A stretch of 34,036 nucleotides of DNA, from contig CAMLHD010000005.1 of assembly GCA_946479835.1 (NCBI GenBank), positions 1 to 34,036 on the forward strand, given 5' to 3'. The translations under genes were made by a program, and so were the position numbers. The notes beneath the pieces were generated by a model that searched no databases, was not told the origin of the DNA, and saw only the letters and a program-made list of their open reading frames with translations. Shown one piece after another: positions 7,208 to 34,036 of the stretch (its first letter is position 1; every line of letters starts with the position of its first letter). The DNA is from an uncultured Candidatus Saccharibacteria bacterium. GTDB taxonomy: Bacteria; Patescibacteria; Saccharimonadia; Saccharimonadales; JACDBH01.

Positions 7208-8659
7208 TTAAGGAACAATTAGCGTTTCCTCATCTGATATGGGACAAGCGCCATCATATGTAGTCTTGCAGAGCAAGAGCCGATAGCTACCCGAAGCCAG
7301 GCCCGAGGTATCAACGGTGTGCTGCGCGCCATCGCCCTTGTATATCTTGGTGGTTGGCTCCGCCCCCGGAGTAGGCGAAATATAAAGCCTGTAGCCGTAC
7401 GGAGCCGTGCCGGTTTGCGTCCAGCTCGCCGAGTTACCGGACAAGCTTAAGCTGACTGTTCCGGTCGGAGGCTCAGGCGGCACATAAGGAGATGTCAGGG
7501 TCACGGTATTGCTGTAAGTATTGCAGCTACCGTCAGTGTAGACGCAGATCCGGTAATGATAGGTCTTGCCGAAAGTATCCTCCCAAGTATATGAGCGGGT
7601 ACCGGCGCCGGATACGAATGTGGCGTCATCCTTGCCATATGTGGGAGTAGTCGATGTTTTGCTACGAACCAGCTTGAAGCCGTCATGACTGCTGCCGATA
7701 TTGCTAACCGTCCAGGTAAATTTGAGGCCCTTCGCTACAGCGCTGCCAGACAGCTTAACGCTTGCACCTGCCGGGACCGGAGCGGGCGCTGGAGCCTGCT
7801 CTTCGATCTTAGTCAAGAAGCCTAGCTTGTCCTTGAATTCATTGGTCTTTTTGTCCTGATCCAGGTTCCAGACCATGAAGCTGCTGCTCTTAAGGTCATC
7901 GACTGATATATCAGTGACTTTGTCTTTGAGCTCGGCGTTGGCATGATCTTTGAAGAACTGCTTGCCTTCGTCAACTTTAGTCTCAGTATCTTTGACCGAC
8001 ACTGAACTTTGCAGCACCAGGACACCCTTGTTAGTATCACTGTTGACGGTGCTGTAAGCGGTGCCTAGGGCAGTGTAGTCGGCGTCGTCAACGCTAACCG
8101 TAAATGAACGCTCCGAAGCCACTACGCGGCTGTAGACTTCGCCGCTAATGTTATCTACTCGTACTTCATCTGCGTAAAGGCTGGTGAGCTGAGCGGTGCT
8201 TGATTCGTTCAGGCGCACGATGCTGCCGTCATCGAAGGTCAGGATGACTCGAGAGCCGACATCGGTCTGCACCGAGTCGCCCTGAGCCAGGTTGGTCTCT
8301 GTGGTAAGGCTATGCCAATCCACGCCGTCATGGCTGTATTTGGCCGTGCCGTCAATCAACGACACCACCAGGCCCAATGAAGCCCGCTGATCCTGTAAAG
8401 GCGCGTTATCGGCTGATTTGTCTTCACCCATAAACATAAAGTAGCCGCCAACGCCTAAAAGCAGGACTAATATAACCGCTGCGGCCAACAGCCGCTTGCG
8501 GTTGAACATAGCTAGTAACCTGGTAAGTATTCCTCCGCGCCCGACCTTTGCCGGACCAGTCGCCACCGGCTGGTCGTTTTCTACCTTTTCTTCATCTGTT
8601 TTAACTTTTACCTCGATCTTTTCTGATTTTTGCTGCTCGTTTTCGGTTTCTTTTTCCAT
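7208..8659 (-). CDS. Membrane-anchored FecR-domain protein with C-terminal Fn3-like domains
   Basis: This 483-aa protein has a charged, K/E-rich cytoplasmic N-terminus (1-45), then one TM helix (about 57-77). A FecR-type beta domain follows (about 90-225), with the typical L-x-G-D-x-V-x-T...L-x-F-DDGS-x-V-x-L pattern. Two fibronectin-III-like beta domains follow (about 295-390 and 395-483), and the first has Cys pairs in the YRICVY/GSC region. FecR domains in Gram-negative bacteria relay signals to sigma factors. In CPR bacteria such domains occur on surface proteins with no sigma factor nearby, and none is seen here. It heads a three-gene set with the coiled-coil and pilin-like proteins. A palindrome overlaps its probable promoter. 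Confidence 0.8.
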   Translation of the reverse strand: MEKETENEQQKSEKIEVKVKTDEEKVENDQPVATGPAKVGRGGILTRLLAMFNRKRLLAAAVILVLLLGVGGYFMFMGEDKSADNAPLQDQRASLGLVVSLIDGTAKYSHDGVDWHSLTTETNLAQGDSVQTDVGSRVILTFDDGSIVRLNESSTAQLTSLYADEVRVDNISGEVYSRVVASERSFTVSVDDADYTALGTAYSTVNSDTNKGVLVLQSSVSVKDTETKVDEGKQFFKDHANAELKDKVTDISVDDLKSSSFMVWNLDQDKKTNEFKDKLGFLTKIEEQAPAPAPVPAGASVKLSGSAVAKGLKFTWTVSNIGSSHDGFKLVRSKTSTTPTYGKDDATFVSGAGTRSYTWEDTFGKTYHYRICVYTDGSCNTYSNTVTLTSPYVPPEPPTGTVSLSLSGNSASWTQTGTAPYGYRLYISPTPGAEPTTKIYKGDGAQHTVDTSGLASGSYRLLLCKTTYDGACPISDEETLIVP

Positions 8660-16139: not shown

Positions 16140-16829
16140 TCAGGGCTCTACCGAGATGCTGCCGGACGTATCCAGGTTCAGATCGTCGTGGAATCCAAAA
16201 TCACCGGCCTGATTAAGCGTGATGGTTTCGGGGCGGCCGTCGTCAAGCACAACCTCGAACTCTCCACCATAGCTTTCATGCTGGTCGTGCGAGCCGAACG
16301 TTATCATCCTATCCGCACCGTCGGCATTTATGAAAGTAAGCGTATCGCACCGTTCGGCATTAAGATGAGCGGGGCTAACACTGCTGCCTCGGATTATAAC
16401 GATGTGGTTATCATGCAGCTCAGTGCAGGCGCCGGTCTGCTCGCCGCTTACCTGGGCGATATTTTCTTCCTGGGCCTGCTTCCTTATAAATTCTTCAGGC
16501 GTCATGTTGTGGTACAGGTTGCTCATGATAAATATTGAAGCGCCGATCACCACGATTATCAGGCCGGCCGTTCCGAAGAAGAAGACGATATTGTAAAGCG
16601 GCTTCGGTCCGCGCCCCAGGTGTAAGAAGAAGAAAATCTGTATAAACATTTGGATCACTCCAAAGCCAAGGATAGCCGCCAGCAGCACGTTACCGGTCAG
16701 TATCTTGTTTACGACCAGATAGTAGGGAATGATGGTAAAGACCAAGGACAAGATAAAGCCGACGATATACGAACCGGTTGATCCGTGCGCGCTTTTTGCT
16801 GTCTTGTGCGGGTATAATTTTTCGCTCAT
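16140..16829 (-). CDS. cyoD: Cytochrome o ubiquinol oxidase subunit IV fused to a cupredoxin-like domain
   Basis: This 229-aa protein is about twice the length of a normal CyoD. Residues 1-110 are CyoD, with three TM helices (about 18-40, 44-70 and 80-103), GSYIVGFILSL, and a FFFLHLG segment typical of the family. Residues about 130-229 form an added beta domain with INADGADRMITFG, a GG-containing strand and a final G-x-FGFHDDLNLDTSGSISV, which resembles the closing strands of cupredoxins. The usual Cys copper ligand is missing (FH instead of YC), but His181, His184 and His214 and two Cys (135 and 161) are present. CyoD topology would place this domain on the outer face. The start overlaps the cyoC stop (ATGA). 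Confidence 0.88.
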   Translation of the reverse strand: MSEKLYPHKTAKSAHGSTGSYIVGFILSLVFTIIPYYLVVNKILTGNVLLAAILGFGVIQMFIQIFFFLHLGRGPKPLYNIVFFFGTAGLIIVVIGASIFIMSNLYHNMTPEEFIRKQAQEENIAQVSGEQTGACTELHDNHIVIIRGSSVSPAHLNAERCDTLTFINADGADRMITFGSHDQHESYGGEFEVVLDDGRPETITLNQAGDFGFHDDLNLDTSGSISVEP

Positions 16830-17425
16830 ACAAATGCCATTAGATAAACTACGGTGAAGATAAATATCCAGACGATATCAAGGAAGTGCCAGAACAGGCT
16901 GAGCAAGGCAAGCTTGCGGACATTGGATTTGGTCAGACCCTTAAGCACCACGAAAACCAGTATAGTGGCCAGCCATAACAGGCCAGAGGTGATATGGAAA
17001 CCGTGCGTACCGACTAACACAAAGAAAGCCGACAGGAACGCGCTAGCCTGCATTGTATGGCCCTCATGGATGAATTCAGCGAATTCGTACAGCTCAATGC
17101 CCAAAAAGGCTAAGCCAAGCAGGAAAGTAACGCCGAACCACCACAATGTTTGGCTTTTTATACCGCGCCTAGCGGCTATCATGCCAAGGCCGGCCGTGAA
17201 GCTGCTGGTCAGCAGGATCAGCGTTTCTGCCAATGCAAGGTTCATGTTGAACAGGTCATGGCCGCCCGGGCCGCCGGCGGTTTGGTTCCGCTGTACCGCA
17301 TAGACCGCGAACAGGACGGCGAACATCAGCAGGTCGGTCATCAGATAGACCCAGAAGCCAAACATCGAACGGTCGTTTGCGGCCGCTTCGTGTTCTTTTT
17401 CTATTGCCAGCTCATGCTTGCTCAT
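16826..17425 (-). CDS. cyoC: Cytochrome o ubiquinol oxidase subunit III
   Basis: This 199-aa integral membrane protein has five TM helices. The N-terminus (MSKHELAIEKEHE, then FGFWVYLMTDLLMFA) and the HGFHITSGLLWL and LFWHFLDIVWIFIFT segments are those of the heme-copper oxidase subunit III family in its short bo3 form. The subunit stabilises subunit I and sits beside its D-pathway entrance. Length is normal (E. coli about 204 aa). It overlaps both cyoB (17422-17425) and cyoD (16826-16829) by 4 nt, so the subunits are translated together. Confidence 0.95.
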   Translation of the reverse strand: MSKHELAIEKEHEAAANDRSMFGFWVYLMTDLLMFAVLFAVYAVQRNQTAGGPGGHDLFNMNLALAETLILLTSSFTAGLGMIAARRGIKSQTLWWFGVTFLLGLAFLGIELYEFAEFIHEGHTMQASAFLSAFFVLVGTHGFHITSGLLWLATILVFVVLKGLTKSNVRKLALLSLFWHFLDIVWIFIFTVVYLMAFV

Positions 17426-19497
17426 TTTTTATTCCTTACCAGGCCCCAGGCCCATCCGGGTGCGGTCTTAACGAATTCGATCAGGCCCATATCGTCTTCA
17501 TCATTGAGTTTGGAAGCATGGTGGCCGATCTGCCTAGGCTGCCGGGATTTCTCAAGTTCCTTGATCTCAGAGGCCGGAATCACGTATTCGGAATCCTCCC
17601 GGAAAGTACGTCCTATTAGAATAATGATAATGGCGAGGATAGATAGGACTACAAGCCATACCATATGCCACGTAAAGCCGAAGCCGACTAGGAACGCAAA
17701 GATCGATATATAGATGCCGGTGGCGGTGTTCTTGGGCATATGGATGTCTTCAAAGCGAGGCTTTGGCATCCCCTCGTTCTTGAATTTCCAGAAGATATCG
17801 CGTTCCGGTGCATCGGGAATGTGAGCGTAGTTGTAGTGCGGCGGCGGCGAGGAAGTCGACCACTCCAGTGTGCGGCCGTCCCACGGGTCGCCGGTAGTGT
17901 CCTTGAGGTGTTTCTTCTGCATGAAGCTGGCAATGATCTGCACTATCTGAAGCGCGACGCCGAGAGCTATTATCAGGCCGCCGATAAACGCCATGATGAA
18001 GAACGGCTGCCAGCCGTGCGAGCCGTCGTAGCGGTCAAGCCGCCTGGTAGCCCCCATCAGGCCAAGGATGTAAAGCGGCGTAAAGGCCATGAAGAAACCT
18101 ATGATCCAGCTCCAAACAGCGTAGCGGCCGATGCGTTCGTTCAATCTGAAGCCAGCTATCTTCGGGAACCAGAAGTTCAGTCCGGCGAAGATGCCGAACA
18201 GCACGCCGCCGACGGCCGTGGAATGGAAGTGGGCCACCAGGAACAAGCTATTGTGCAGCTGAAAATCTACTGGTGGAATGGCCAGCAGGATGCCGGAAAT
18301 ACCGCCCAGTGCGAATATGCCGACGAAGCCGAGGAACCAGAGCATCGGCGTCGTAAAACGGATACTGCCTTTGTACATGGTGGCGATCCAGTTGAACATC
18401 AGCACCGTCGTCGGTATGGCGATGATCATGGTCGCTACTCCAAAGGCCGAGTTGACATTGGCGCCGGCGCCCATCGTGAAGAAGTGGTGCAGCCAGACCG
18501 CCAACGAAACCGTCGCCACGCCTATGATTCCGGCTACGGCGGATTTATAAAAAGCTACCGGTTTGCGGCTGAAGGTCGAGACTACTTCTGAGAATATGCC
18601 GAAGCTGGGCAGCATAATGATATATACCTCCGGGTGGCCCCACATCCAGATCAGGTTGGTGTACATCATCGGGTTGCCACCGCCGGTGGTAGTAAAGAAG
18701 TGCGTGCCAAGATAACGATCAAAAAACAGCAGGAATATGGTCATGGTCAGCAGGGGAAAGACACTGATAGCCATGATCATGCTGCACAAACTTCCCCAGG
18801 TGAACAACGGCATCTTCAGCAAGGTCATGCCCGGAGCACGCATTTTTAAGATAGTCATTATGAAGTTTATGGCACCCAGGGTAGTACCGATACCGGATAT
18901 CTGAAGGCTCCATATCCAATAATCCATACCGACTCCCGGACTGAACTCCGGACCCGATAAAGGCGCCACCGCCAGCCAGCCAGTAGCCGCATACTCGCCG
19001 CCTAAGAAGAAGAACATGTTGATCATAATTACACCGCCGACATAAAGCCAGAAGCCCAAGGTATTCATGAACGGCGAGGCCAGGTCGCGGGCGCCTATCT
19101 GCAACGGAACGATATAGTTGATAAAGCCGAAGATCAGCGCCATAGCCACGAAGAACACCATGATATTGCCATGGGCGGTGAATATCTCCTGGAAATGCTG
19201 CGCCGACAAATAACCTGTTGATCCGCCGCTGGCCAGTGCCTGCTGCAGCCATAGCATGATGGCGTCCAGTCCGCCGCGCAACAGCATAAAACCACCGACC
19301 CAGAAATACATGATGCCGATCTTCTTCGGATCGACCGATGTCAGCCATTCTTTCCATAGCCAGGTCCAGCGCTTTTTGTAGGTAATAAAGCCGATTGTGG
19401 CCAGCAGCATCAGGCCGAAGCCGATAGAACCGGCAATGGTGTGCCATTCATGAGGCAATGCCTCGCCGCTTAATTTACCGAGTAGGAATTCTCTCAT
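17422..19497 (-). CDS. cyoB: Cytochrome o ubiquinol oxidase subunit I, lacking the K-channel lysine
   Basis: This 691-aa catalytic subunit of a bo3-type quinol oxidase reduces O2 at the heme o3-CuB site and pumps protons. Ligands are all present: low-spin heme His109 and His425; CuB His288, His337 and His338, with Tyr292 for the His-Tyr cross-link; heme o3 His423. D-pathway residues Asp138 and Asn127 and the Glu290 of HPEVY are present. Quinone-site Arg74, Asp78 and His101 are kept, but the residue equivalent to E. coli Gln101 is Glu104. The K-pathway motif is IPTTVLMFNW, with Leu366 in place of the E. coli Lys362. The order cyoA-B-C-D is normal. The start overlaps the cyoA stop by 1 nt (TGATG). 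Confidence 0.97.
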   Translation of the reverse strand: MREFLLGKLSGEALPHEWHTIAGSIGFGLMLLATIGFITYKKRWTWLWKEWLTSVDPKKIGIMYFWVGGFMLLRGGLDAIMLWLQQALASGGSTGYLSAQHFQEIFTAHGNIMVFFVAMALIFGFINYIVPLQIGARDLASPFMNTLGFWLYVGGVIMINMFFFLGGEYAATGWLAVAPLSGPEFSPGVGMDYWIWSLQISGIGTTLGAINFIMTILKMRAPGMTLLKMPLFTWGSLCSMIMAISVFPLLTMTIFLLFFDRYLGTHFFTTTGGGNPMMYTNLIWMWGHPEVYIIMLPSFGIFSEVVSTFSRKPVAFYKSAVAGIIGVATVSLAVWLHHFFTMGAGANVNSAFGVATMIIAIPTTVLMFNWIATMYKGSIRFTTPMLWFLGFVGIFALGGISGILLAIPPVDFQLHNSLFLVAHFHSTAVGGVLFGIFAGLNFWFPKIAGFRLNERIGRYAVWSWIIGFFMAFTPLYILGLMGATRRLDRYDGSHGWQPFFIMAFIGGLIIALGVALQIVQIIASFMQKKHLKDTTGDPWDGRTLEWSTSSPPPHYNYAHIPDAPERDIFWKFKNEGMPKPRFEDIHMPKNTATGIYISIFAFLVGFGFTWHMVWLVVLSILAIIIILIGRTFREDSEYVIPASEIKELEKSRQPRQIGHHASKLNDEDDMGLIEFVKTAPGWAWGLVRNKK

Positions 19498-20435
19498 CAG
19501 TGTCCCTCGTGCTCCCCATATTCAACCACCTCAGCCTGGTGGCCATGAGAGCCACCGTGAGATCCACCGTACTTACTAAGTATATTACCGTATAATTCTG
19601 CGCCCGGATTGGAATAAAAGGCGGGCGGGTTGTCCTCGCTTGGCGTTAGCAGCTTGGCATATTCCAGATCGGTCAGCTCGAATGGCGATTGCAGGGTATG
19701 GCCAACCCACTTGTCAAAATCAGCCTGCGTGCTAACGCGGGTAACGAACCTCATGTCGGCAAACCCTCGGCCGTTAATCTCGGCCGCGCCGCCTTCATAA
19801 TCTCCGACCGTATCGGCTATCAGGTTCAGCGTGTTGACATGCTCAGTCATGGCGTAAAGCATCCCTGCCAGGTGGGGAATCCAGAACGAACTCATAGGCG
19901 TCTCGTCAGCCGTTAGCTCAAATCTAACCGGAGTATCTACCGGGATCTGCACATAATTGACGGTGGCAATGTTCTGCTTGGGGTAAACGAACAACCACTT
20001 CCAGCGCATAGCGACTACTTGGATTGTCAGCGGTTCTTTACCGTTTTCAATCGGATCTTTAGGCTCAAGTTTTTGGGTGGCGGGCAGCATCAGCGCGGCG
20101 AGCACAATTGCGACCAGCAATGGGGATACCCAGGCCGTGACTACCAACGCTTTGCTCCGGCCGGCATCATGACGAAAGTGCGATTTATCATTGGACTCGC
20201 GGTACTTCCATGCAAAGAAATAGAGCGCGAACAAGATCGGGGCAGCGAACCCCACCATAATCAATGTCGAGACCACCATCAGCTGATGCTGCTGGTCGGC
20301 TATCAGCCCTTTGGGATTGAATAGGATCAAGTCGTGGCCTCTGAGCAACACAGCAACAAGCAGGCTGAGGCTAAGCAACCCTAAAACAGTCAGCCATATC
20401 GGCTTGCCACGCTTGTTTTTTACGCTTTTTGTCAT
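19497..20435 (-). CDS. cyoA: Cytochrome o ubiquinol oxidase subunit II
   Basis: This 312-aa protein has an N-terminal hydrophobic segment (about 14-31) that lacks the E. coli-like lipobox Cys. Two TM helices (about 52-75 and 98-117) follow, then an outer cupredoxin domain (about 130-275) with VVAMRWKWLFVYP and SSFWIPHLAGMLYAM. The CuA Cys-x3-Cys pair is absent, as expected for a quinol rather than a cytochrome c oxidase. The last 25 residues are His-rich (GGSHGGSHGHQ...GEHEGH), which could bind Cu or Zn and is not a usual CyoA feature. It is the first gene of the oxidase operon, with an extended -10 (TGC-TATAGT) upstream and divergent cyoE on the other side. Confidence 0.95.
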   Translation of the reverse strand: MTKSVKNKRGKPIWLTVLGLLSLSLLVAVLLRGHDLILFNPKGLIADQQHQLMVVSTLIMVGFAAPILFALYFFAWKYRESNDKSHFRHDAGRSKALVVTAWVSPLLVAIVLAALMLPATQKLEPKDPIENGKEPLTIQVVAMRWKWLFVYPKQNIATVNYVQIPVDTPVRFELTADETPMSSFWIPHLAGMLYAMTEHVNTLNLIADTVGDYEGGAAEINGRGFADMRFVTRVSTQADFDKWVGHTLQSPFELTDLEYAKLLTPSEDNPPAFYSNPGAELYGNILSKYGGSHGGSHGHQAEVVEYGEHEGH

Positions 20436-20463
20436 TAACCCTTTAAGCTTAAGTATTACTCCT

Positions 20464-20469
20464 ACTATA
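20464..20469 (-). promoter_or_regulatory. Extended -10 of the cyoABCD operon
   Basis: ATGC-TATAGT on the minus strand lies 28 nt before the cyoA ATG. TTCAAC 16 nt upstream is a possible -35. The 89-nt gap to divergent cyoE must hold both promoters. The TTGAAA at 20487-20492 would serve the other direction, so the two could be co-regulated. Confidence 0.5.
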
Positions 20470-20486
20470 GCATGTGGGCTTCGGGG

Positions 20487-20513
20487 TTGAAATACCGTCT
20501 AACACCTTATGAT
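20487..20513 (+). promoter_or_regulatory. Candidate cyoE promoter (TTGAAA-15-TATGAT)
   Basis: TTGAAA at 20487-20492 and TATGAT at 20508-20513 lie directly before the cyoE ATG at 20525. No Shine-Dalgarno fits in the remaining 11 nt, which points to leaderless or near-leaderless translation. Confidence 0.45.
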
Positions 20514-20524
20514 AGACTGATGAC

Positions 20525-21385
20525 ATGAACTTCGGGGCCCTCTACCGGCTGACCAAGCCGGGTGTTACCTACGGCAATCTCATTACTACCATCGCGGCGT
20601 TCCTGTTCGCTTCCGACGGCCATATAGACTGGGGTGTTTTCTTATCTCTTACTGTCGGCACATGGGCCGTGATTGCCAGCGCGTGCGTCATAAACAATTT
20701 CCTGGACCAAGACATAGACTCAAAGATGGAGCGCACCCGCAACCGGCCATTGATAACTGGCGAGGTTAGCGGGCAGCAAGCAGTACTATTCGGCGCACTG
20801 CTGGGTTTAGGCGGAACAGTCCTCCTGGCTTTGTTCACCAACTGGTGGGTGGTAGGCGTCGGTATTTTTGGCTGGATAGTCTACGTGCTTTTTTATGGAG
20901 CGCTGGGCAAGCGCTTGAGCGTGCATGGCACGCTGGTCGGCTCGCTTAGCGGCGCGGCGCCGATACTGGCCGGCTATGTGGCGGTTTATCCGGGGTTGGA
21001 CTGGACTGCAGCGGTGCTTTTTGCCGCCATCTTTTTCTGGCAGATGCCGGAATTCTATAGCATTTCTATATTTCGGGAGCGCGAGTATGCCAAAGCCGGC
21101 GTGCCGGTCAGCTCGATTATCCGCGGCGTACCGGCAACCATCCGCCAAATATTTTTCTATACCATACTGACTTTGGCCAGCATGCTGGCTTTGGCCGTCA
21201 GCCCTCTGACCAGCTGGACCTATTGGGTAGTCATGCTGATACTGGGCATGCGATGGCTGCATCTGGCAGCCGAGGGCCAGCTAACGGACGACACCGTGTC
21301 TTGGTCGCGCCGAAATTTCCGCTATGCTTTGGTAATCTTAGTGGTATTCTGCGCGGTTATTGCGCTTAACCCATATTTGCCATAA
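20525..21385 (+). CDS. cyoE: Protoheme IX farnesyltransferase (heme O synthase)
   Basis: This 286-aa UbiA-family prenyltransferase with about eight TM helices adds a farnesyl group to heme b to give heme O for the bo3 oxidase. The first Asp-rich motif is N-F-L-DQDIDSKMERT-x-NRPL (about residues 58-75). The second conserved loop is YGALGKRLSVHGTLVGSLSGA (split here as YGALGKRLS and GTLVGSLSGA, about 125-147), followed by FFWQMPEFYSISI (about 170-183) typical of CyoE/CtaB. It is divergent from cyoABCD. No heme-biosynthesis gene is seen in the window, so the heme b source is not shown. A small membrane-protein gene follows after 9 nt. Confidence 0.95.
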   Translation: MNFGALYRLTKPGVTYGNLITTIAAFLFASDGHIDWGVFLSLTVGTWAVIASACVINNFLDQDIDSKMERTRNRPLITGEVSGQQAVLFGALLGLGGTVLLALFTNWWVVGVGIFGWIVYVLFYGALGKRLSVHGTLVGSLSGAAPILAGYVAVYPGLDWTAAVLFAAIFFWQMPEFYSISIFREREYAKAGVPVSSIIRGVPATIRQIFFYTILTLASMLALAVSPLTSWTYWVVMLILGMRWLHLAAEGQLTDDTVSWSRRNFRYALVILVVFCAVIALNPYLP

Positions 21386-21394
21386 AGTAGGCTT

Positions 21395-21649
21395 ATGCTT
21401 ATTTTTGTCCATGTGATGTTGGCTCTAAGTGCAATCGCGCTTTCTGTAGCCGCAAATTTCATGCCCAGTGCGGGCAAGCTTAAGTCAAGTTATATGTTAG
21501 CCGTAGGCACCCTAGCTTCCGGCGTACTTTTGATAATTGTCAATAACGCCAGCGTCCTTCGCACATGCTTGACCGGCATAGCATTCTTTGGCATCGTCTC
21601 CATGCTCAACGAAACCGCCCGCAAGCGCCTGGCAACCCAGGAAGATTGA
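21395..21649 (+). CDS. Small membrane protein downstream of cyoE
   Basis: This 84-aa protein is nearly all membrane. TM helices lie at about 2-22, 32-51 and 57-72, followed by a short charged C-terminus (NETARKRLATQED). It starts 9 nt after the cyoE stop and should be co-transcribed. There are no His-rich or heme-binding motifs beyond one His at position 6, and a single Cys in RTCLTG. No family is recognised. Its place suggests an accessory role in heme O or oxidase assembly, but this is context only. Confidence 0.65.
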   Translation: MLIFVHVMLALSAIALSVAANFMPSAGKLKSSYMLAVGTLASGVLLIIVNNASVLRTCLTGIAFFGIVSMLNETARKRLATQED

Positions 21650-21707
21650 TATCTCGTTTATCAGGGGAGAGTAGCCGGAGCGCCGGATTTATTCCGCGCC
21701 CCGCGCG

Positions 21708-21735
21708 ATGAGAGGGGAACTTCTTCCCCTCTCAT
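21708..21735. terminator. 12-bp perfect hairpin between convergent genes (possible terminator without T-tract)
   Basis: ATGAGAGGGGAA (21708-21719) and TTCCCCTCTCAT (21724-21735) pair perfectly around a CTTC loop. The hairpin lies between the cyoE-linked gene (+) and the FAD oxidase gene (minus). Neither side has a U-tract, so intrinsic termination is uncertain. It may instead protect mRNA 3' ends. Confidence 0.45.
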
Positions 21736-21762
21736 GAGCAAGCGAACGAAGTGAGCGTGGCG

Positions 21763-23418
21763 TTAAAAATGGTCTCTTACACGGGAGAATGAGTACTCCC
21801 ATGTCGCATCTGCCTTTTTGTGTGGATTGAATATGTTCTGCGGATCATAGATTTCTTTGATTTCACGGAAGAGTTTGACGACCTTGCGGCCGTACATTTC
21901 CTCAAGCCAAGGACCGCGCACCAGACCGTCGTTATGTTCGCCGCTTAAAGAACCGCCGAATTTCAATATCAGCTCATTGACTTCGCGCATAGCCGGCTCA
22001 AGCTTGGCGCGCTCGCGCGGGTCTTCCAGCTTCATCAGCGGAATAATATGGAAGTTGCCGTCCCCCATGTGGCCGGCAATGGTGGCTAACAATTTATACT
22101 TCTTAATAATTTTGCGCAGCTTTGGCAGAAATACCGGCAGGTGTTCGGGATTGACCACAAGGTCATCGATGAACGGGGCAGTGTGCTTATCTTTGACTTT
22201 GCTTCTAAGCAGCTGAAAGCTGGCCCGGCGCATGATCCAGAATTTGCGGCTCTTGGCCTCGGTCTCGTCTTCTTCGAACAACGACTTGTGCTTGAATTCC
22301 TTAAGGTCTTGGCGCAAGGCGCTGACTTTGTCGGCGATAACTTCCGGAGAATCGCCGTCGAACTCTACCAGCAGCACCATCTTGGGAATACCTCGCATCA
22401 GCATGGCGGCGTTAGGTATCAGCTGCGCGGCCAGCTTGATGGTTGCCGGCCAACCGATCAGCTTATGGAAATTAAAGAACAGCTTGAAGCTCAGCATCAG
22501 CGTGTAGTTATCGAAGCCTTCAAAGGCGGAAGGATTATGGGTCATAACCTTGTTGATCATCTTGCCTAAGGGCTTGAGGTCTCGTAAAAAGATCACCAGT
22601 GTGCCGGAATGTTTCGGTGCTGGCACTAGCCGGAACTTCATCTCGGTCGTCAGGCCTAATGTTCCCTGAGCGCCCACGAACAGCTTAGTCAGATCAAATA
22701 TGCCGGTTTCGCGGTTCCAGATGTTCCAAAGATGATAACCGGTCGAATCCTTACTGACTTTCGGCCGTGCCGCTTGCAGGGCTTCGTAATTTTCTTCCAG
22801 TAGGTGAAAGGTCTTGCGGTACAGATCGCCCTCGAAGTTCTTGCGCTTCATCTTGGCATCGAGTTCTTTTCTGGTCAGCGGCTTGATTACGTATTCATTG
22901 CCGTCGCTTAGGACCATTTTTAGTTCGGTAACAAAATTGTCGGTCTTGCCATACTCCAGCGATTTTTCGCCACCGGAATTGTTGTTGACCATGCCACCGA
23001 TGGTGCATAGATCCCTCGACGCCGGATAGGGCGGCAGCAGCGCGTTTTTCTTCAGGCTCTGCTTTTCAAAATCACGGTAATAAACGCCGGGCTGCACGGT
23101 TGCGGCCGTGGCCGTCAACGCTTTGATATCTTTGAAGTGCCTTTTAAAGTCAGCGATGATCGAATCATTGATGGCGCCGCCCGACATGTCGGTGCCAGCC
23201 GAACGCGCAGTTACGCTTAAAGATGGGTTGGTAGCTTTATGTTTGCTTATCATCCGCACCAATGCCTGGACATCGTCGCTGTTCTTCGGAAAAACGACCA
23301 GCTCAGGCCGGATTTCAAAAAGTGAAGCGTCGTGGCTGTAGGTATCTTTTGCGGCCGCTGAATCGTCGACCTCACCCTTAAAACCTGCGGAGCGCAGTTT
23401 TTCGACTAGTTTCTGCAT
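21763..23418 (-). CDS. FAD-linked oxidase (D-lactate/glycolate dehydrogenase-like)
   Basis: This 551-aa protein has an N-terminal PCMH FAD-binding domain (about 35-230) and a C-terminal FAD-oxidase domain (about 260-540). The PCMH domain has VVFPKNSDDVQALVR, TARSAGTDMSGG and a DLCTIGGMVNNNSGG segment. The C-terminal domain has the GHMGDGNFHI motif (about 460-470) and SGEHNDGLVRG (about 505-515), which supply metal and substrate contacts in D-2-hydroxyacid dehydrogenases. There is no Fe-S domain. The family oxidises D-lactate, glycolate or similar acids and passes electrons to a quinone or cytochrome. Its position between cyoE and NDH-2 suggests it feeds the quinone pool. The exact substrate is unknown. 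Confidence 0.88.
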   Translation of the reverse strand: MQKLVEKLRSAGFKGEVDDSAAAKDTYSHDASLFEIRPELVVFPKNSDDVQALVRMISKHKATNPSLSVTARSAGTDMSGGAINDSIIADFKRHFKDIKALTATAATVQPGVYYRDFEKQSLKKNALLPPYPASRDLCTIGGMVNNNSGGEKSLEYGKTDNFVTELKMVLSDGNEYVIKPLTRKELDAKMKRKNFEGDLYRKTFHLLEENYEALQAARPKVSKDSTGYHLWNIWNRETGIFDLTKLFVGAQGTLGLTTEMKFRLVPAPKHSGTLVIFLRDLKPLGKMINKVMTHNPSAFEGFDNYTLMLSFKLFFNFHKLIGWPATIKLAAQLIPNAAMLMRGIPKMVLLVEFDGDSPEVIADKVSALRQDLKEFKHKSLFEEDETEAKSRKFWIMRRASFQLLRSKVKDKHTAPFIDDLVVNPEHLPVFLPKLRKIIKKYKLLATIAGHMGDGNFHIIPLMKLEDPRERAKLEPAMREVNELILKFGGSLSGEHNDGLVRGPWLEEMYGRKVVKLFREIKEIYDPQNIFNPHKKADATWEYSFSRVRDHF

Positions 23419-23476
23419 GACTTAATAACAGCTTAGCGGTTTAGGTCCAAGGTGGCAATACACTTATGGTTTTTGC

Positions 23477-23482
23477 TATACT
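23477..23482 (+). promoter_or_regulatory. Extended -10 of ndh
   Basis: TTGC-TATACT has a TG extension and ends 12 nt before the ndh ATG. No Shine-Dalgarno is present in the short gap, so the message is probably near-leaderless. The -35 is weak. Confidence 0.5.
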
Positions 23483-23494
23483 CGTCATTAAGAT

Positions 23495-24694
23495 ATGAAA
23501 AAACTGCAAGTAGCAATTGTCGGGGGCGGCTTTGGCGGCGTCAAAGCAGCTCTTGAGCTGGCCGGCCATAACAGCTTCAATGTCACGCTGGTCGCCAACA
23601 AGCCTTTCTTCGAATACTTTCCGATGATGTACCACACCGCTACCGGCGGCAGCCGGATAGTTTCCAGCATCACGCTAGGCGAAATATTTGAGGATAAACG
23701 GATTTCAATCTTGATTGACACGGCTGCCAAGATCAATCGTCAAAAGAAGATCCTTAATTTAAAAAGCGGCACCAAACTGGAATATGACATCCTGATTTTG
23801 TCGCTCGGCAACGTGACCAATTATTTCAACATCCCGGGCATGGAAAAATACTCGTTCGGAATTAAAAGCCTGCGTGATACCGAGGCTCTAAAGGCGCATC
23901 TGCATGAGCAGATGACCAACAAGCTGGATATTGACGCTCACTACGTAATCATCGGCGGCGGGCCGACAGGCGTGGAAATCGCTGGTGCTTTACCCGGCTA
24001 CGTCAAATACCTGCGCAAGATGCATGGTGTCCGGTCTAAAAAGAAGATTCATGTTGATCTGATCGAAGCTGCGCCAAGAGTGATGCCGCGCATGCCGAAA
24101 GATGTTTCCCGGATCATTGCCCGGCGCCTCCGCAAGCTTGGCGTCAAATTGTATTTCGGCCGGCCCGTACAGGCCGAAACCGCCGACACGCTGCTATTGG
24201 ACGGCCAACCTATACGCTCGCATACCGTAATTTGGACGGCCGGCGTAGCCAACAATCCATTCTTTGCCAAGAATCACTTCCAACTGTCTCCGAACGGCAA
24301 AGTGCAGGTCGACCAGCTGCTGCAGGCTTGGCCGGGCGTGTTCGTAATCGGCGATAATGCCGATACGCCGTACAGCGGCATGGCGCAGACCGTGCTGCGC
24401 GACGCCAATTTCGTGACCCATAATCTTAAGCGCCACGCCGCCGGCAAACGGCCGTTCGCCTACAAACCCAAGAAACCGATCTACGTTACCCCGGTAGGCA
24501 AGAACTGGGCAGTTGTGGTTTGGGGACGCATGCATTTTTACGGCTATTTGGGCTGGATTCTGCGCCGGGCCGCCGACTGGATCGGTTACCGCGACATCGA
24601 ACCATGGTGGAAGGCTACTAGCAGGCTGCTGGCAGACGATGATAGACAGGATAACTGTCTGGTCTGCGCTACCCGCGTGGCCGCCGTAGATTAG
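23495..24694 (+). CDS. ndh: Type II NADH:quinone dehydrogenase (NDH-2)
   Basis: This 399-aa single-subunit flavoenzyme oxidises NADH and reduces quinone at the inner membrane face without pumping protons. The FAD Rossmann motif is VAIVGGGFGGVKAALEL (residues 6-22). The NAD motif is YVIIGGGPTGVEIAGAL (about 150-166), followed by an acidic end-of-strand region. The second FAD motif is VFVIGDNADT (about 284-293), with a quinone-side GMAQTVLRDA helix just after. The C-terminus has an amphipathic stretch (YLGWILRRAADWIGY) for membrane attachment. It is divergent from the FAD oxidase (76-nt gap). With CyoABCD it forms a two-enzyme NADH-to-oxygen chain. A strong terminator follows. Confidence 0.93.
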   Translation: MKKLQVAIVGGGFGGVKAALELAGHNSFNVTLVANKPFFEYFPMMYHTATGGSRIVSSITLGEIFEDKRISILIDTAAKINRQKKILNLKSGTKLEYDILILSLGNVTNYFNIPGMEKYSFGIKSLRDTEALKAHLHEQMTNKLDIDAHYVIIGGGPTGVEIAGALPGYVKYLRKMHGVRSKKKIHVDLIEAAPRVMPRMPKDVSRIIARRLRKLGVKLYFGRPVQAETADTLLLDGQPIRSHTVIWTAGVANNPFFAKNHFQLSPNGKVQVDQLLQAWPGVFVIGDNADTPYSGMAQTVLRDANFVTHNLKRHAAGKRPFAYKPKKPIYVTPVGKNWAVVVWGRMHFYGYLGWILRRAADWIGYRDIEPWWKATSRLLADDDRQDNCLVCATRVAAVD

Positions 24695-29825: not shown

Positions 29826-30572
29826 TTACCTGCGGCGGCGAGCCGTAGTTTTGCGCTTGGTGCTAGTGGTTGTCTTTTTGCCACGAGCCGAAGTGGTTGT
29901 TTTGCTCTCGCTAGTACTGACCACGCGTGCGCGTGAAGACGATACCAATGAATTAAGTGGAGCGAACAGCAGAACATAAAGGTTCATACCGACTACGCTA
30001 CCGATAATAGGGCCGAAGATGTAGGCCCGGCTCCAAGACTGGTTCGCCAGCGCAATGGCTGGGTTCAAAATGGCATTGGAAGCTAATGAAGCTACGATAA
30101 CGCCCATGAACAGACCTCCGCCCATCAGAACGGCTGCTCGTCCGGCTTCGTAGCGCTCGTAAACAGCTGCAGCGATTGCGAAGGTGAATACCAACGCACC
30201 GACAGCCTCGGCTACCAGCACCTTCCAATCAAACGCGTTGCCAGCAATGCTGCGCAACTCATCGCCAACGAAGTAGTTGGCCAGCTGCCAGGCTGCCAGA
30301 CCACCGAGCATCTGCACGGCTAGGTAGGCGATTGCCTGGATGGTTTGTATTTTGCGCAGTGTCCATAAGCCAATGGTCACTGCCGGGTTGAAATGCCCAC
30401 CGGAAGTAGCGCCAACCGCCAGGACCAATAAGGCCAGCGTTGCGCCTACGGCAATCGCTACAAAGTAGCTGATGCCGATTTGTGAACGCGAAACGTTAAT
30501 AGCGACAGTGGCGAGTACGGCAGTACCCAGAAACTCCGCTGCTAACATCGCGATCCTTGATCGCACTGTCAT
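29826..30572 (-). CDS. Aquaporin (MIP family) with basic C-terminal tail
   Basis: This 248-aa channel has six TM helices and two half-helices. The first NPA box is GGHFNPAVT (about residue 62) and the second is ILNPAIAL (about 176). The Arg that normally follows the second NPA and forms the selectivity filter is Ile here, so the pore may be wider or less polar than in AqpZ. The last 40 residues are a cytoplasmic tail of S, T, K and R (ending KRKTTARRRR), like a histone tail. The start at 30572 (MTVRSR) is preferred because GGAGGG lies 10 nt upstream. An in-frame ATG at 30590 has no such site. It lies about 95 nt downstream of the carbonic-anhydrase-like gene on the same strand. Confidence 0.88.
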   Translation of the reverse strand: MTVRSRIAMLAAEFLGTAVLATVAINVSRSQIGISYFVAIAVGATLALLVLAVGATSGGHFNPAVTIGLWTLRKIQTIQAIAYLAVQMLGGLAAWQLANYFVGDELRSIAGNAFDWKVLVAEAVGALVFTFAIAAAVYERYEAGRAAVLMGGGLFMGVIVASLASNAILNPAIALANQSWSRAYIFGPIIGSVVGMNLYVLLFAPLNSLVSSSRARVVSTSESKTTTSARGKKTTTSTKRKTTARRRR

Positions 30573-30668
30573 CGCAGGATAACCCTCCATTTATTTATGC
30601 AATAACAATAAATGTTTTTTCACATAAATGCAAATAGTTTAGGGTGTGTTATAGCTGTTGTCCCGCTA

Positions 30669-31529
30669 TTAAGCTGCCACAGCAACTTGTTCCGGCGTCA
30701 GGACCGCAGCACGGTGCTTACCGTCGCAAAGCGCAATGTAGGTCGCGACCTGGTAGGCCATCATTGTATGGAACAACATCGAAGCTTGGGCTTCGGCATC
30801 AACGCCTTCCGCCATAGCATTGGCAAGCTTCTTAATGTACCAAACGTCAACCACAAAAACTTGTTTGCCAGTAGCCTTAAAGTACGCGTCCCGGTCAATG
30901 GTAGTGTTCTCAACATAGTTGAATATGACCATTTGTTCGCGGTGGCCGTGAACGCCTTCATGGTCGTCCAACAATGTTTCGGTGAGATCTTCGCCCACGG
31001 TATCTTTAAGAAAGTTCTTATCATCATTGACCGGCGCAATCGTAACGTCTTGGTAAGTTCCGGCGTTGAAATCACTGCCCATGAGCGACTGCACCGTGGG
31101 TTCCAGCCCGCCCTTATGCTGCGTGAACAAGTCGCTGATAGTGGTGATCTTGTCATTCGCGCCACAGCCGGTACCATTAGCAAAACCTTCGGCCCGGTTA
31201 GTCGAGTCAACGTGCGCGCCAAGCGTAAATCCACGCTCCTTTGCCTTGGCCAAAAGTTCTGCGCCCTGCAGTTGCAGGCCCGCAGCTTTGGCGGCAACCA
31301 GAAGGCTTTCCGCGCCGCCGGCCAAGTGCGCACCAAGCCCTAAGGCCTGAGCAACTTCAGCCAATGTTCGGCCATCTAGGCATACGGCGGGATTACGCCA
31401 ATCAATATTTACGCGGAACTGATCTGCCTCGCTAGCTTCGGCTTCGGCCTCAGCTTGGGTAAATTCCGGTGCCGTAATGCCCCCGAAACCAACGCCGATT
31501 TCCGAAGTTACTGTAATTTGTGCAGGCAT
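30669..31529 (-). CDS. Probable zeta-class (cadmium-type) carbonic anhydrase homologue
   Basis: This 286-aa soluble protein has its start set at 31529 (MPAQITV) by GGAGGGAG 8 nt upstream. A 17-residue longer frame lacks a good site. The order of motifs matches my recollection of diatom CDCA repeats: C50-x-D52-G-R54 (CDCA: CVDGR), an A-GG turn (residues 70-72), H106-x-D108 (CDCA: HGDH), G-C122-G (CDCA: GCGF), H190-x3-H194-G-H196-x-E with a following V-x-x-N and N-x-T, then F-x-V-D-x-W (about 229-235). Cys50, His106 and Cys122 would bind Zn or Cd, with Asp52/Arg54 as the catalytic dyad. The second ligand gap is 16 residues instead of 10. Alternative: a related non-catalytic fold. Confidence 0.6.
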   Translation of the reverse strand: MPAQITVTSEIGVGFGGITAPEFTQAEAEAEASEADQFRVNIDWRNPAVCLDGRTLAEVAQALGLGAHLAGGAESLLVAAKAAGLQLQGAELLAKAKERGFTLGAHVDSTNRAEGFANGTGCGANDKITTISDLFTQHKGGLEPTVQSLMGSDFNAGTYQDVTIAPVNDDKNFLKDTVGEDLTETLLDDHEGVHGHREQMVIFNYVENTTIDRDAYFKATGKQVFVVDVWYIKKLANAMAEGVDAEAQASMLFHTMMAYQVATYIALCDGKHRAAVLTPEQVAVAA

Positions 31530-31740
31530 GATAATTTCTCCCTCCAGGTTTCTAGTTTCTTGCATACTAATTCTTTCCATTAAAATAGAGCACCTTAAAA
31601 CTTGCTAGGTTAATAAAATCCTGTACCACTCTACTACTTTTTGTTTCTAATTTGAAGGGTAGATGGGGCTTGGCATGTGCGTATTGTCACACTTGATTCC
31701 GCATAGCAATGATAGGATTAAATTACTATAGGAGCCTGCA

Positions 31741-32025
31741 ATGAGCGTTGAGCCGTGGCCCGGTAGCACCAACCCCGATTCAGAAAATGAAGCGCTCTTA
31801 GACTGGTTTGAATTAAACTTACGCGATAAAGAACTGCTGCGGGATTTGCAGCGGCAATTGATAGAACAAAATCCAGCTTTGTACCGCATTTTGGCCGATA
31901 CCGCGGCTGATATTGCGCCGGGCGATCCAAAAGGCCACGAAACTTATTTTGGCGCGTTGCTACTGCGGGCGGCCGAATCCGAGTTCCGATACGTGCCGTT
32001 GGAAGCCCCACCGCAAGCCGCTTAA
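31741..32025 (+). CDS. Small acidic soluble protein of unknown function
   Basis: This 94-aa protein starts at an ATG preceded by AGGAG at 8-nt spacing. The predicted structure is mostly helical, with ENEALLDWFELNLRDKELLRDL, then a short RYVPLEAPPQ tail. It has no Cys, signal peptide or TM segment. Its stop overlaps the convergent atpC stop by 4 nt (TTAA). Codon use matches the neighbours. No family is recognised. The 211 nt upstream (31530-31740) contain no other gene that I can support. Confidence 0.6.
   Translation: MSVEPWPGSTNPDSENEALLDWFELNLRDKELLRDLQRQLIEQNPALYRILADTAADIAPGDPKGHETYFGALLLRAAESEFRYVPLEAPPQAA

Positions 32026-32586: not shown

Positions 32587-32587
<1 letters not shown>
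32447..32587 (-). CDS. 46-aa ORF wedged between atpD and atpC
   Basis: The ATG at 32585-32587 shares one base with the atpD stop (TAATG), and the TGA at 32447-32449 overlaps the atpC start by 4 nt (ATGA). The frame encodes 46 residues: a proline-rich start (MAELQPPAPDYPEP), a short hydrophobic/basic middle (GRLIPSVRLIEVEL) and an acidic end (SADDSQITDKDETAQ). It is too short for an ordinary ORF search. The exact fit at both ends strongly suggests that it is translated as part of the atp operon. No family is recognised. It may be an assembly or regulatory peptide. Confidence 0.65.

Positions 32588-34036
<1,449 letters not shown>

Follow-up and report, generated by a model that had tools for sequence, protein, structure and literature searches.

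Does the product of a minus-strand gene in an uncultured Candidatus Saccharibacteria bacterium belong to the zeta class of carbonic anhydrases, the class of the diatom enzyme CDCA1, and what might such an enzyme do beside the ATP synthase genes of a very small symbiont-type bacterium of the candidate phyla radiation (CPR)? The gene lies on contig CAMLHD010000005.1, whose positions 1 to 34,036 (34,036 nucleotides) constitute the stretch analysed here and are referred to as the window. A first-pass annotation, made from the letters alone, had called it a likely zeta-class (cadmium-type) carbonic anhydrase of a divergent, single-domain form in a CPR host. That claim is upheld and is extended by the gene neighbourhood. 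At a probability of roughly 80%, the gene encodes a carbonic anhydrase with one domain and the zeta (CDCA) fold, where "cadmium-type" is a label of fold and class and does not denote the use of cadmium.

The gene and its predicted functional positions are as follows. Counts refer to A3, an alignment of 133 proteins in which the window open reading frame (ORF) replaces P0001 and from which seven shorter proteins are left out.

30669..31529, minus strand: predicted zeta-type (CDCA-fold) carbonic anhydrase gene, 286 amino acids, no further Pfam domain
31541..31545, minus strand: GGAGG, likely ribosome-binding site of the ATG at 31529, 11 bases before it
31380..31382, minus strand: codon of Cys50, predicted metal ligand 1 (CxDGR), 133/133
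31368..31376, minus strand: codons of Asp52-Gly53-Arg54, predicted Asp-Arg pair; D52 and R54 133/133, G53 131/133
31212..31214, minus strand: codon of His106, predicted metal ligand 2, 132/133, aligned with the CDCA1 His
31164..31166, minus strand: codon of Cys122, predicted metal ligand 3 (GCG), 133/133, aligned with the Cys of GCG in CDCA1
30936..30944, minus strand: codons of His196-Arg197-Glu198, the HxE common to CDCA1; H196 and E198 133/133

Translation bears out the ORF as real, with a single-domain product of 286 residues. The start is probably the ATG at 31529, which is favoured by the GGAGG before it, and the in-frame ATG at 31580 is less likely. No signal sequence is apparent by eye, and the protein is presumably cytosolic. 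A promoter and terminator scan returned promoter-like sites at chance level only.

The fold is the first line of evidence. The predicted structure superposes well on the repeats of CDCA1 only, the outcome that the first-pass annotation had anticipated, and the protein thus shows the CDCA fold of zeta carbonic anhydrases in the model. The structural matches listed contain no beta-class row, and such a missing row does not exclude a beta-class fold. By sequence, the protein matches a single Pfam family at E values up to 10, PF18484 (CDCA, cadmium carbonic anhydrase repeat; E 7.5e-5), in agreement with the earlier proposal. The beta-class families PF00484 and PF20393 gave no match up to E 10, a range in which the HMMER filters drop most matches above ~0.1. 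A weak lead to the PRK11440 hydrolase of NCBIfam (E 0.062, 13 of 195 bits) proved false.

The match to this family is beyond chance, because 46 proteins, the window protein included, are matched by phmmer at E≤1e-3 and at least 71 by profile. The latter count comes from alignment A1 (44 rows, with the window ORF in place of P0001 and the short P0028 and P0046 left out), in which 41 of the 44 rows match PF18484 at E up to 1. Against the PDB, the only matches of this profile are CDCA structures (3boh at E 7e-4 and 3uk8 at E 0.036), and the single window sequence gave chance-level phmmer matches only. A second profile, A2, built from 20 of the more distant relatives, reaches at least 81 proteins; both profile searches scored the 7997 candidates with the most shared words. 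A precomputed PF18484 tag is carried by 16 of the 46 phmmer homologues and by 77 of the at least 81 A2-profile proteins, and therefore the domain match itself is already present in databases, where the few names given read "hypothetical protein". Plasmid and phage collections yielded no tblastn match, and predicted viral structures none at E≤1e-3.

The conserved residues give the most specific support. The motif chain noted at first pass is complete and in the stated order: C50-L-D52-G-R54, G71-G72, H106-V-D108, G121-C122-G123, H190-x3-HGH-x-E198, V201-x-x-N204 and F225-x-VD228-x-W230. C50, D52, R54, G71, G121, C122, G123, D126, H196 and E198 are invariant in all 133 A3 proteins, and by sequence and profile alignment the full ligand set of two Cys and one His, together with CxDGR and GCG, is kept in 132 of them. 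In hhalign comparisons with pieces of the three CDCA1 repeats (A1, E 3.3e-8; A3, E 3.6e-8; probability 95% for both), C50, H106, C122, H196, E198, N204 and W230 fall on the Cys, His, Cys, His, Glu, Asn and Trp of CDCA1. Together, the CDCA match, the CDCA1-like model and these aligned positions support the zeta-class reading; the fold and the conserved ligand set are thus grounded in the sequence or the model, as is the gene neighbourhood described below.

Compared with CDCA1 of Thalassiosira weissflogii (PDB 3bob, 3boh, 3boj, 3uk8 and 7bez; PF18484), the window protein is alike in fold and carries CxDGR, His, GCG, HxE, N and W at matching places. It differs in having one domain instead of three repeats, in its additional D126 and other residues of the bacterial family, and in its host, a non-photosynthetic CPR bacterium instead of a diatom. 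Tandem repeats are not needed for activity, since single CDCA1 repeats are active according to a passage of a 2015 review (PMC4413181). Other bacterial PF18484 proteins, uncharacterised and in many cases from Saccharibacteria-type genomes or metagenomes, share the same invariant residues and, at most loci of the class, the same gene place. Both the beta class (PF00484) and the zeta class hold the metal by two Cys and one His, as described in part of one source (PMC4730368). The beta families PF00484 and PF20393 differ from the window protein in their Pfam models, which it does not match, and in being dimers, whereas it is a single CDCA-fold chain.

The linker between the second and third ligands is one departure from the diatom enzyme. 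The step from His106 to Cys122 is 16 residues against 10 in CDCA1, as the first reading had it, and this longer gap and the low PF18484 score both mark a divergent form. Among 132 bacterial proteins the step ranges from 11 to 49, with 12 (48 proteins), 16 (33) and 13 (22) being the commonest. CDCA1 has Gly directly after the metal His, whereas the window protein has Val there and only 1 of the 132 has Gly (T in 49, D in 30, V in 26, C in 13, others in 13); all 132 have Gly directly before the last Cys. The pair of Gly at both inner linker ends is thus not found in the window protein, and it may or may not be class-defining. In CDCA1, as the relevant passage states, two Cys and one His serve as ligands, with G316 and G324 on either side of the linker that joins two of these, and changing either Gly to Ala in the second repeat (CDCA1-R2) abolishes metal exchange (PMC4413181). 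Metal exchange may therefore be poorer in the bacterial protein, which lacks the Gly after the metal His.

Several observations weigh against the zeta-class assignment. The Foldseek TM-scores by query are modest (0.40-0.46). The window protein scores 22.9 bits against the curated PF18484 cut-off of 29.2, which is a curation threshold and not a biological trait, and the match is limited to residues 189-235; because of this score, the protein is called here a member of a divergent bacterial branch of the CDCA fold family and not a Pfam-grade member. A2 finds CDCA in the PDB weakly and intermixed with an unrelated transferase (3uk8 E 0.001, 2rl1 E 0.004, 3boh E 0.059, 3bob E 0.57), and its hhalign match to CDCA1 covers the last 32 columns only (E 2.4e-4, probability 44%). 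P0075 has Arg in place of H106, the sole exception among the 133. With Gly after the metal His so rare, cadmium exchange may not carry over from the diatom enzyme. Finally, the locus nearest to the window by its neighbouring genes, L004, keeps only a C-terminal piece (7965-8252; 83 residues matched); its metal-site part is gone while atpC and the channel gene next to it are retained, and the gene can therefore be lost.

Metal binding, the identity of the metal and catalysis are what we infer from these residues. Cys50, His106 and Cys122 would hold one Zn2+ (most likely) or possibly Cd2+, and a metal-bound hydroxide would attack CO2 to give bicarbonate. Asp52 and Arg54 would orient the metal-bound water, a role that we take to be that of the pair in beta-type enzymes. 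The second lobe (His196, Glu198, Asn204 and Trp230) may complete the pocket, and a single chain would then do the work of a beta-type dimer. Some relatives of beta anhydrases hydrolyse carbonyl sulfide (COS) or carbon disulfide (CS2), and the same fold and metal site might here serve mainly such a reaction on a CO2-like molecule. An identity to CDCA1 of ~20% over the structural alignment, the longer ligand linker and hosts that are not phototrophs would suit this alternative, but all ligand and CxDGR/HxE positions are kept, and no neighbouring sulfur gene was found among the part of the window ORFs that was scanned; it is considered unlikely. CO2 hydration by a zeta-type anhydrase is the preferred reading in what follows.

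The distribution of the family bears on both the host and the gene place. A CPR host, as first proposed, agrees with the window proteins of atpD, atpC and the adjoining channel gene, which are 91, 85 and 84% identical to those of the Saccharibacteria locus L004, and the assignment to Candidatus Saccharibacteria is supported. In a genome collection, 156 pattern matches included 6 loci encoding relatives, labelled Candidatus Saccharibacteria (3), Patescibacteria group bacterium (2) and bacterium (1). In a draw across the phylum, A1 matches occurred in 7 of 379 genomes and PF18484 in 6 of 379 (5 over the cut-off) and in 0 of 14 control genomes; with the A1 matches combined, 8 genomes were positive. 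Within the class of genome G001, presumably Saccharibacteria (G004 and G005, both among the matching genomes, bear that name), A3 matches were present in at least 72 of 324 genomes, including pieces such as the G004 remnant. This is a lower bound, as homologues turned up in genomes counted as lacking the gene. Of 40 genomes taken to be without the anhydrase (11 listed so, 29 inferred), 16 contained atpC, and two of these carry a homologue beside it: L131 (profile E 9e-8, no PF18484 match) and L128 (recognised by eye only, no Pfam match). PF00484 was found in the phylum draw over its cut-off in 4 of 379 genomes and at E≤1e-3 in 23, none of them a zeta-type genome, numbers that say little. In a FastTree analysis of 100 sequences, the CDCA1 pieces group with short or divergent bacterial forms at a support of 0.43, and the tree therefore gives no direction of transfer.

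The genes around the anhydrase in the window are the following.

29826..30590, minus strand: MIP (aquaporin family) channel gene, PF00230 E 5.5e-21, 78 bases after the anhydrase gene on the same strand
31741..32025, plus strand: small ORF of 94 amino acids between atpC and the anhydrase gene, with a weak match in the same place in L001
32022..32450, minus strand: atpC, ATP synthase epsilon subunit, upstream of the anhydrase gene, named by its position after atpD and by homologues
32587..33984, minus strand: presumed atpD, for the beta subunit of ATP synthase, so named from its sequence; its homologues adjoin atpC at related loci

The 491 bases between atpC and the anhydrase gene contain most of the small opposite-strand ORF, whose product is 33% identical over 58 residues to its L001 counterpart and matches no Pfam family at E≤0.001 (best DUF3040, E 0.048).

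This arrangement recurs throughout the class. Across 73 loci from all 72 matching class genomes, atpC lies near the anhydrase gene at 61, within 2.8 kb and with the anhydrase always downstream; the two share a strand at 59 of these 61. The 12 loci without atpC are L005, L031, L071, L076, L087, L090, L103, L107, L109, L111, L114 and L124, among which L076, L109 and L111 have a contig edge on the atpC side. The gap is 200 bases or less at 21 of the 61 linked loci. A gene position inside or next to the atp operon, as seen at most loci, could also suit a non-catalytic anhydrase-fold protein, acting as a sensor of metal or of CO2/bicarbonate or as a structural partner of the ATP synthase; the ligands and catalytic-type residues are, however, invariant despite very low mutual identity, and this alternative is regarded as very improbable. 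The median pairwise identity of the 62 anhydrase proteins at linked loci is 20.7% (1888 pairs), and the linkage has thus outlived most sequence likeness.

The MIP gene adjoins the anhydrase gene at 36 of the 73 loci (34 of those linked to atpC, plus two truncated by a contig end). Outside this count, the genes also run atpD, atpC, anhydrase, MIP in L006 but not in L034. In the phylum draw, MIP was present in 6 of 8 zeta-type genomes against 55 of 371 others (Fisher 3e-4, uncorrected for kinship); with two genomes found by A3 (G143 without MIP and G225 with it), the counts become 7 of 10 against 54 of 369 (Fisher 1.7e-4, likewise uncorrected), both on the assumption that the draws compared are identical but for their centres.

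With a catalytic zeta-type enzyme, the most likely physiology would be an acceleration of the CO2/bicarbonate/proton equilibrium near the proton-translocating ATP synthase, and the MIP channel may, judging by gene order, offer a path for CO2 or water. A real functional tie of the anhydrase to the ATP synthase or the channel, which gene order alone suggests, is possible at somewhat less than even odds. There is about an even chance that the enzyme is real and that its place beside atpC and MIP is an old gene order of no functional meaning. The functionally unrelated uvrD is in the same block at 49 of the 61 linked loci, so part of the linkage reflects general conservation of gene order, and the 12 loci not seen with atpC, three of them cut by a contig end, suit the same explanation. 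Set against it, in 46 of its 49 loci uvrD runs on the other strand, whereas MIP shares the strand of the anhydrase gene in 35 of 36 and lies within 160 bases in 35 of 36, and MIP was near atpC in none of the 16 genomes taken as anhydrase-free, in which ~1.5 kb was seen on each side. Two single cases also speak against an order without meaning, pointing toward a CO2/bicarbonate/proton role. At L133 (1072-1455), where no zeta-type gene was detected in the genome, another putative carbonic anhydrase of the Pro_CA_2 family (PF20393, 52 bits), with CxDxR as in the window protein, follows atpC on its strand at a distance of 39 bases; at L033 (5436-6956), the anhydrase and MIP genes are separated by one for a Na+/H+ exchanger (PF00999, E 1.5e-57).

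Pro_CA_2 as a replacement in zeta-free genomes did not hold up as a general rule, PF20393 being found in 2 of 80 genomes: directly after atpC in G397 and ~9 kb from it in G423. An MscL channel gene occurs in the block at L082 (5021-5422) and at L002, L003, L006, L070, L077, L078, L092, L096, L113 and L120, in many cases lying between atpC and the anhydrase gene in opposite orientation; it was checked by Pfam in L082 and recognised by sequence motif or by eye at the other 10. Elsewhere in the window, homologues of a FecR-domain protein (7208-8659) adjoin the anhydrase locus in L029 and L033. Positions 16140-24694 carry genes for heme-copper oxidase subunits (COX1, COX2 with COX_ARM, COX4_pro), a UbiA-family protein, a pyridine-nucleotide oxidoreductase and an FAD-linked oxidase. 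Together they form a set for aerobic respiration in a CPR genome, and sets of this kind have been reported before from Saccharibacteria. Two papers on respiration in this group describe a bo3 oxidase, and the word anhydrase is absent from their main texts (PMC8407418, PMC6031116).

Some relatives are unusual in form. In L104 (3986-4888) and L108 (3998-4900), CIDGR follows AGGT instead of preceding it, by eye, with the His and last Cys present, an arrangement that resembles a permutation of part of the metal-site lobe. L034 (7211-7843), from another genome of the phylum, encodes 210 amino acids, exceeds the PF18484 cut-off (38.6 bits) and has the PGGIY common to CDCA1, and it is not beside atpC. 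L084 (3998-6024) has two profile-matched anhydrase ORFs side by side, and L092 (1963-2925) has a divergent second ORF in which the Cys, His and Cys motifs were recognised by eye only and which has no Pfam match.

Published accounts have centred on diatoms. The 2015 review states, in its passages on CDCA1, that homologues were identified in diatoms only and that CDCA1 represents a unique useful role of cadmium (PMC4413181). A 2020 review table places zeta under diatoms (PMC7215798), a 2024 paper under diatoms or phytoplankton in the relevant part (PMC11085502), and a 2017 study reports, in the part concerned, zeta genes in few of the diatoms examined (PMC5853954). A 2024 minireview, in its tally of bacterial and archaeal genomes, lists zeta among the forms less abundant in Archaea, which implies bacterial matches; a word search of its main text found no words for Saccharibacteria, Patescibacteria or CPR (PMC10880623). 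Full-text literature searches, in which subscription journals were thinly covered, gave, among the entries listed, no title or abstract opening that describes the bacterial gene or its gene order.

A diverse bacterial branch, found in roughly one fifth or more of the class genomes sampled, offers single-domain enzymes for studying the zeta class and is a possible source of the diatom gene. The broadest version, in which Saccharibacteria possess a CO2/bicarbonate/proton module of a zeta anhydrase and an aquaporin-family channel in the ATP synthase locus, and the diatom cadmium enzyme descended from a larger and more diverse bacterial family, is at present rather doubtful. The gene order suggests a connection, open to test, of a carbonic anhydrase with a MIP channel and ATP synthase in cells whose genomes measure ~1 Mb; if true, such a module would allow a minimal cell to manage CO2 and protons close to its ATP synthase.
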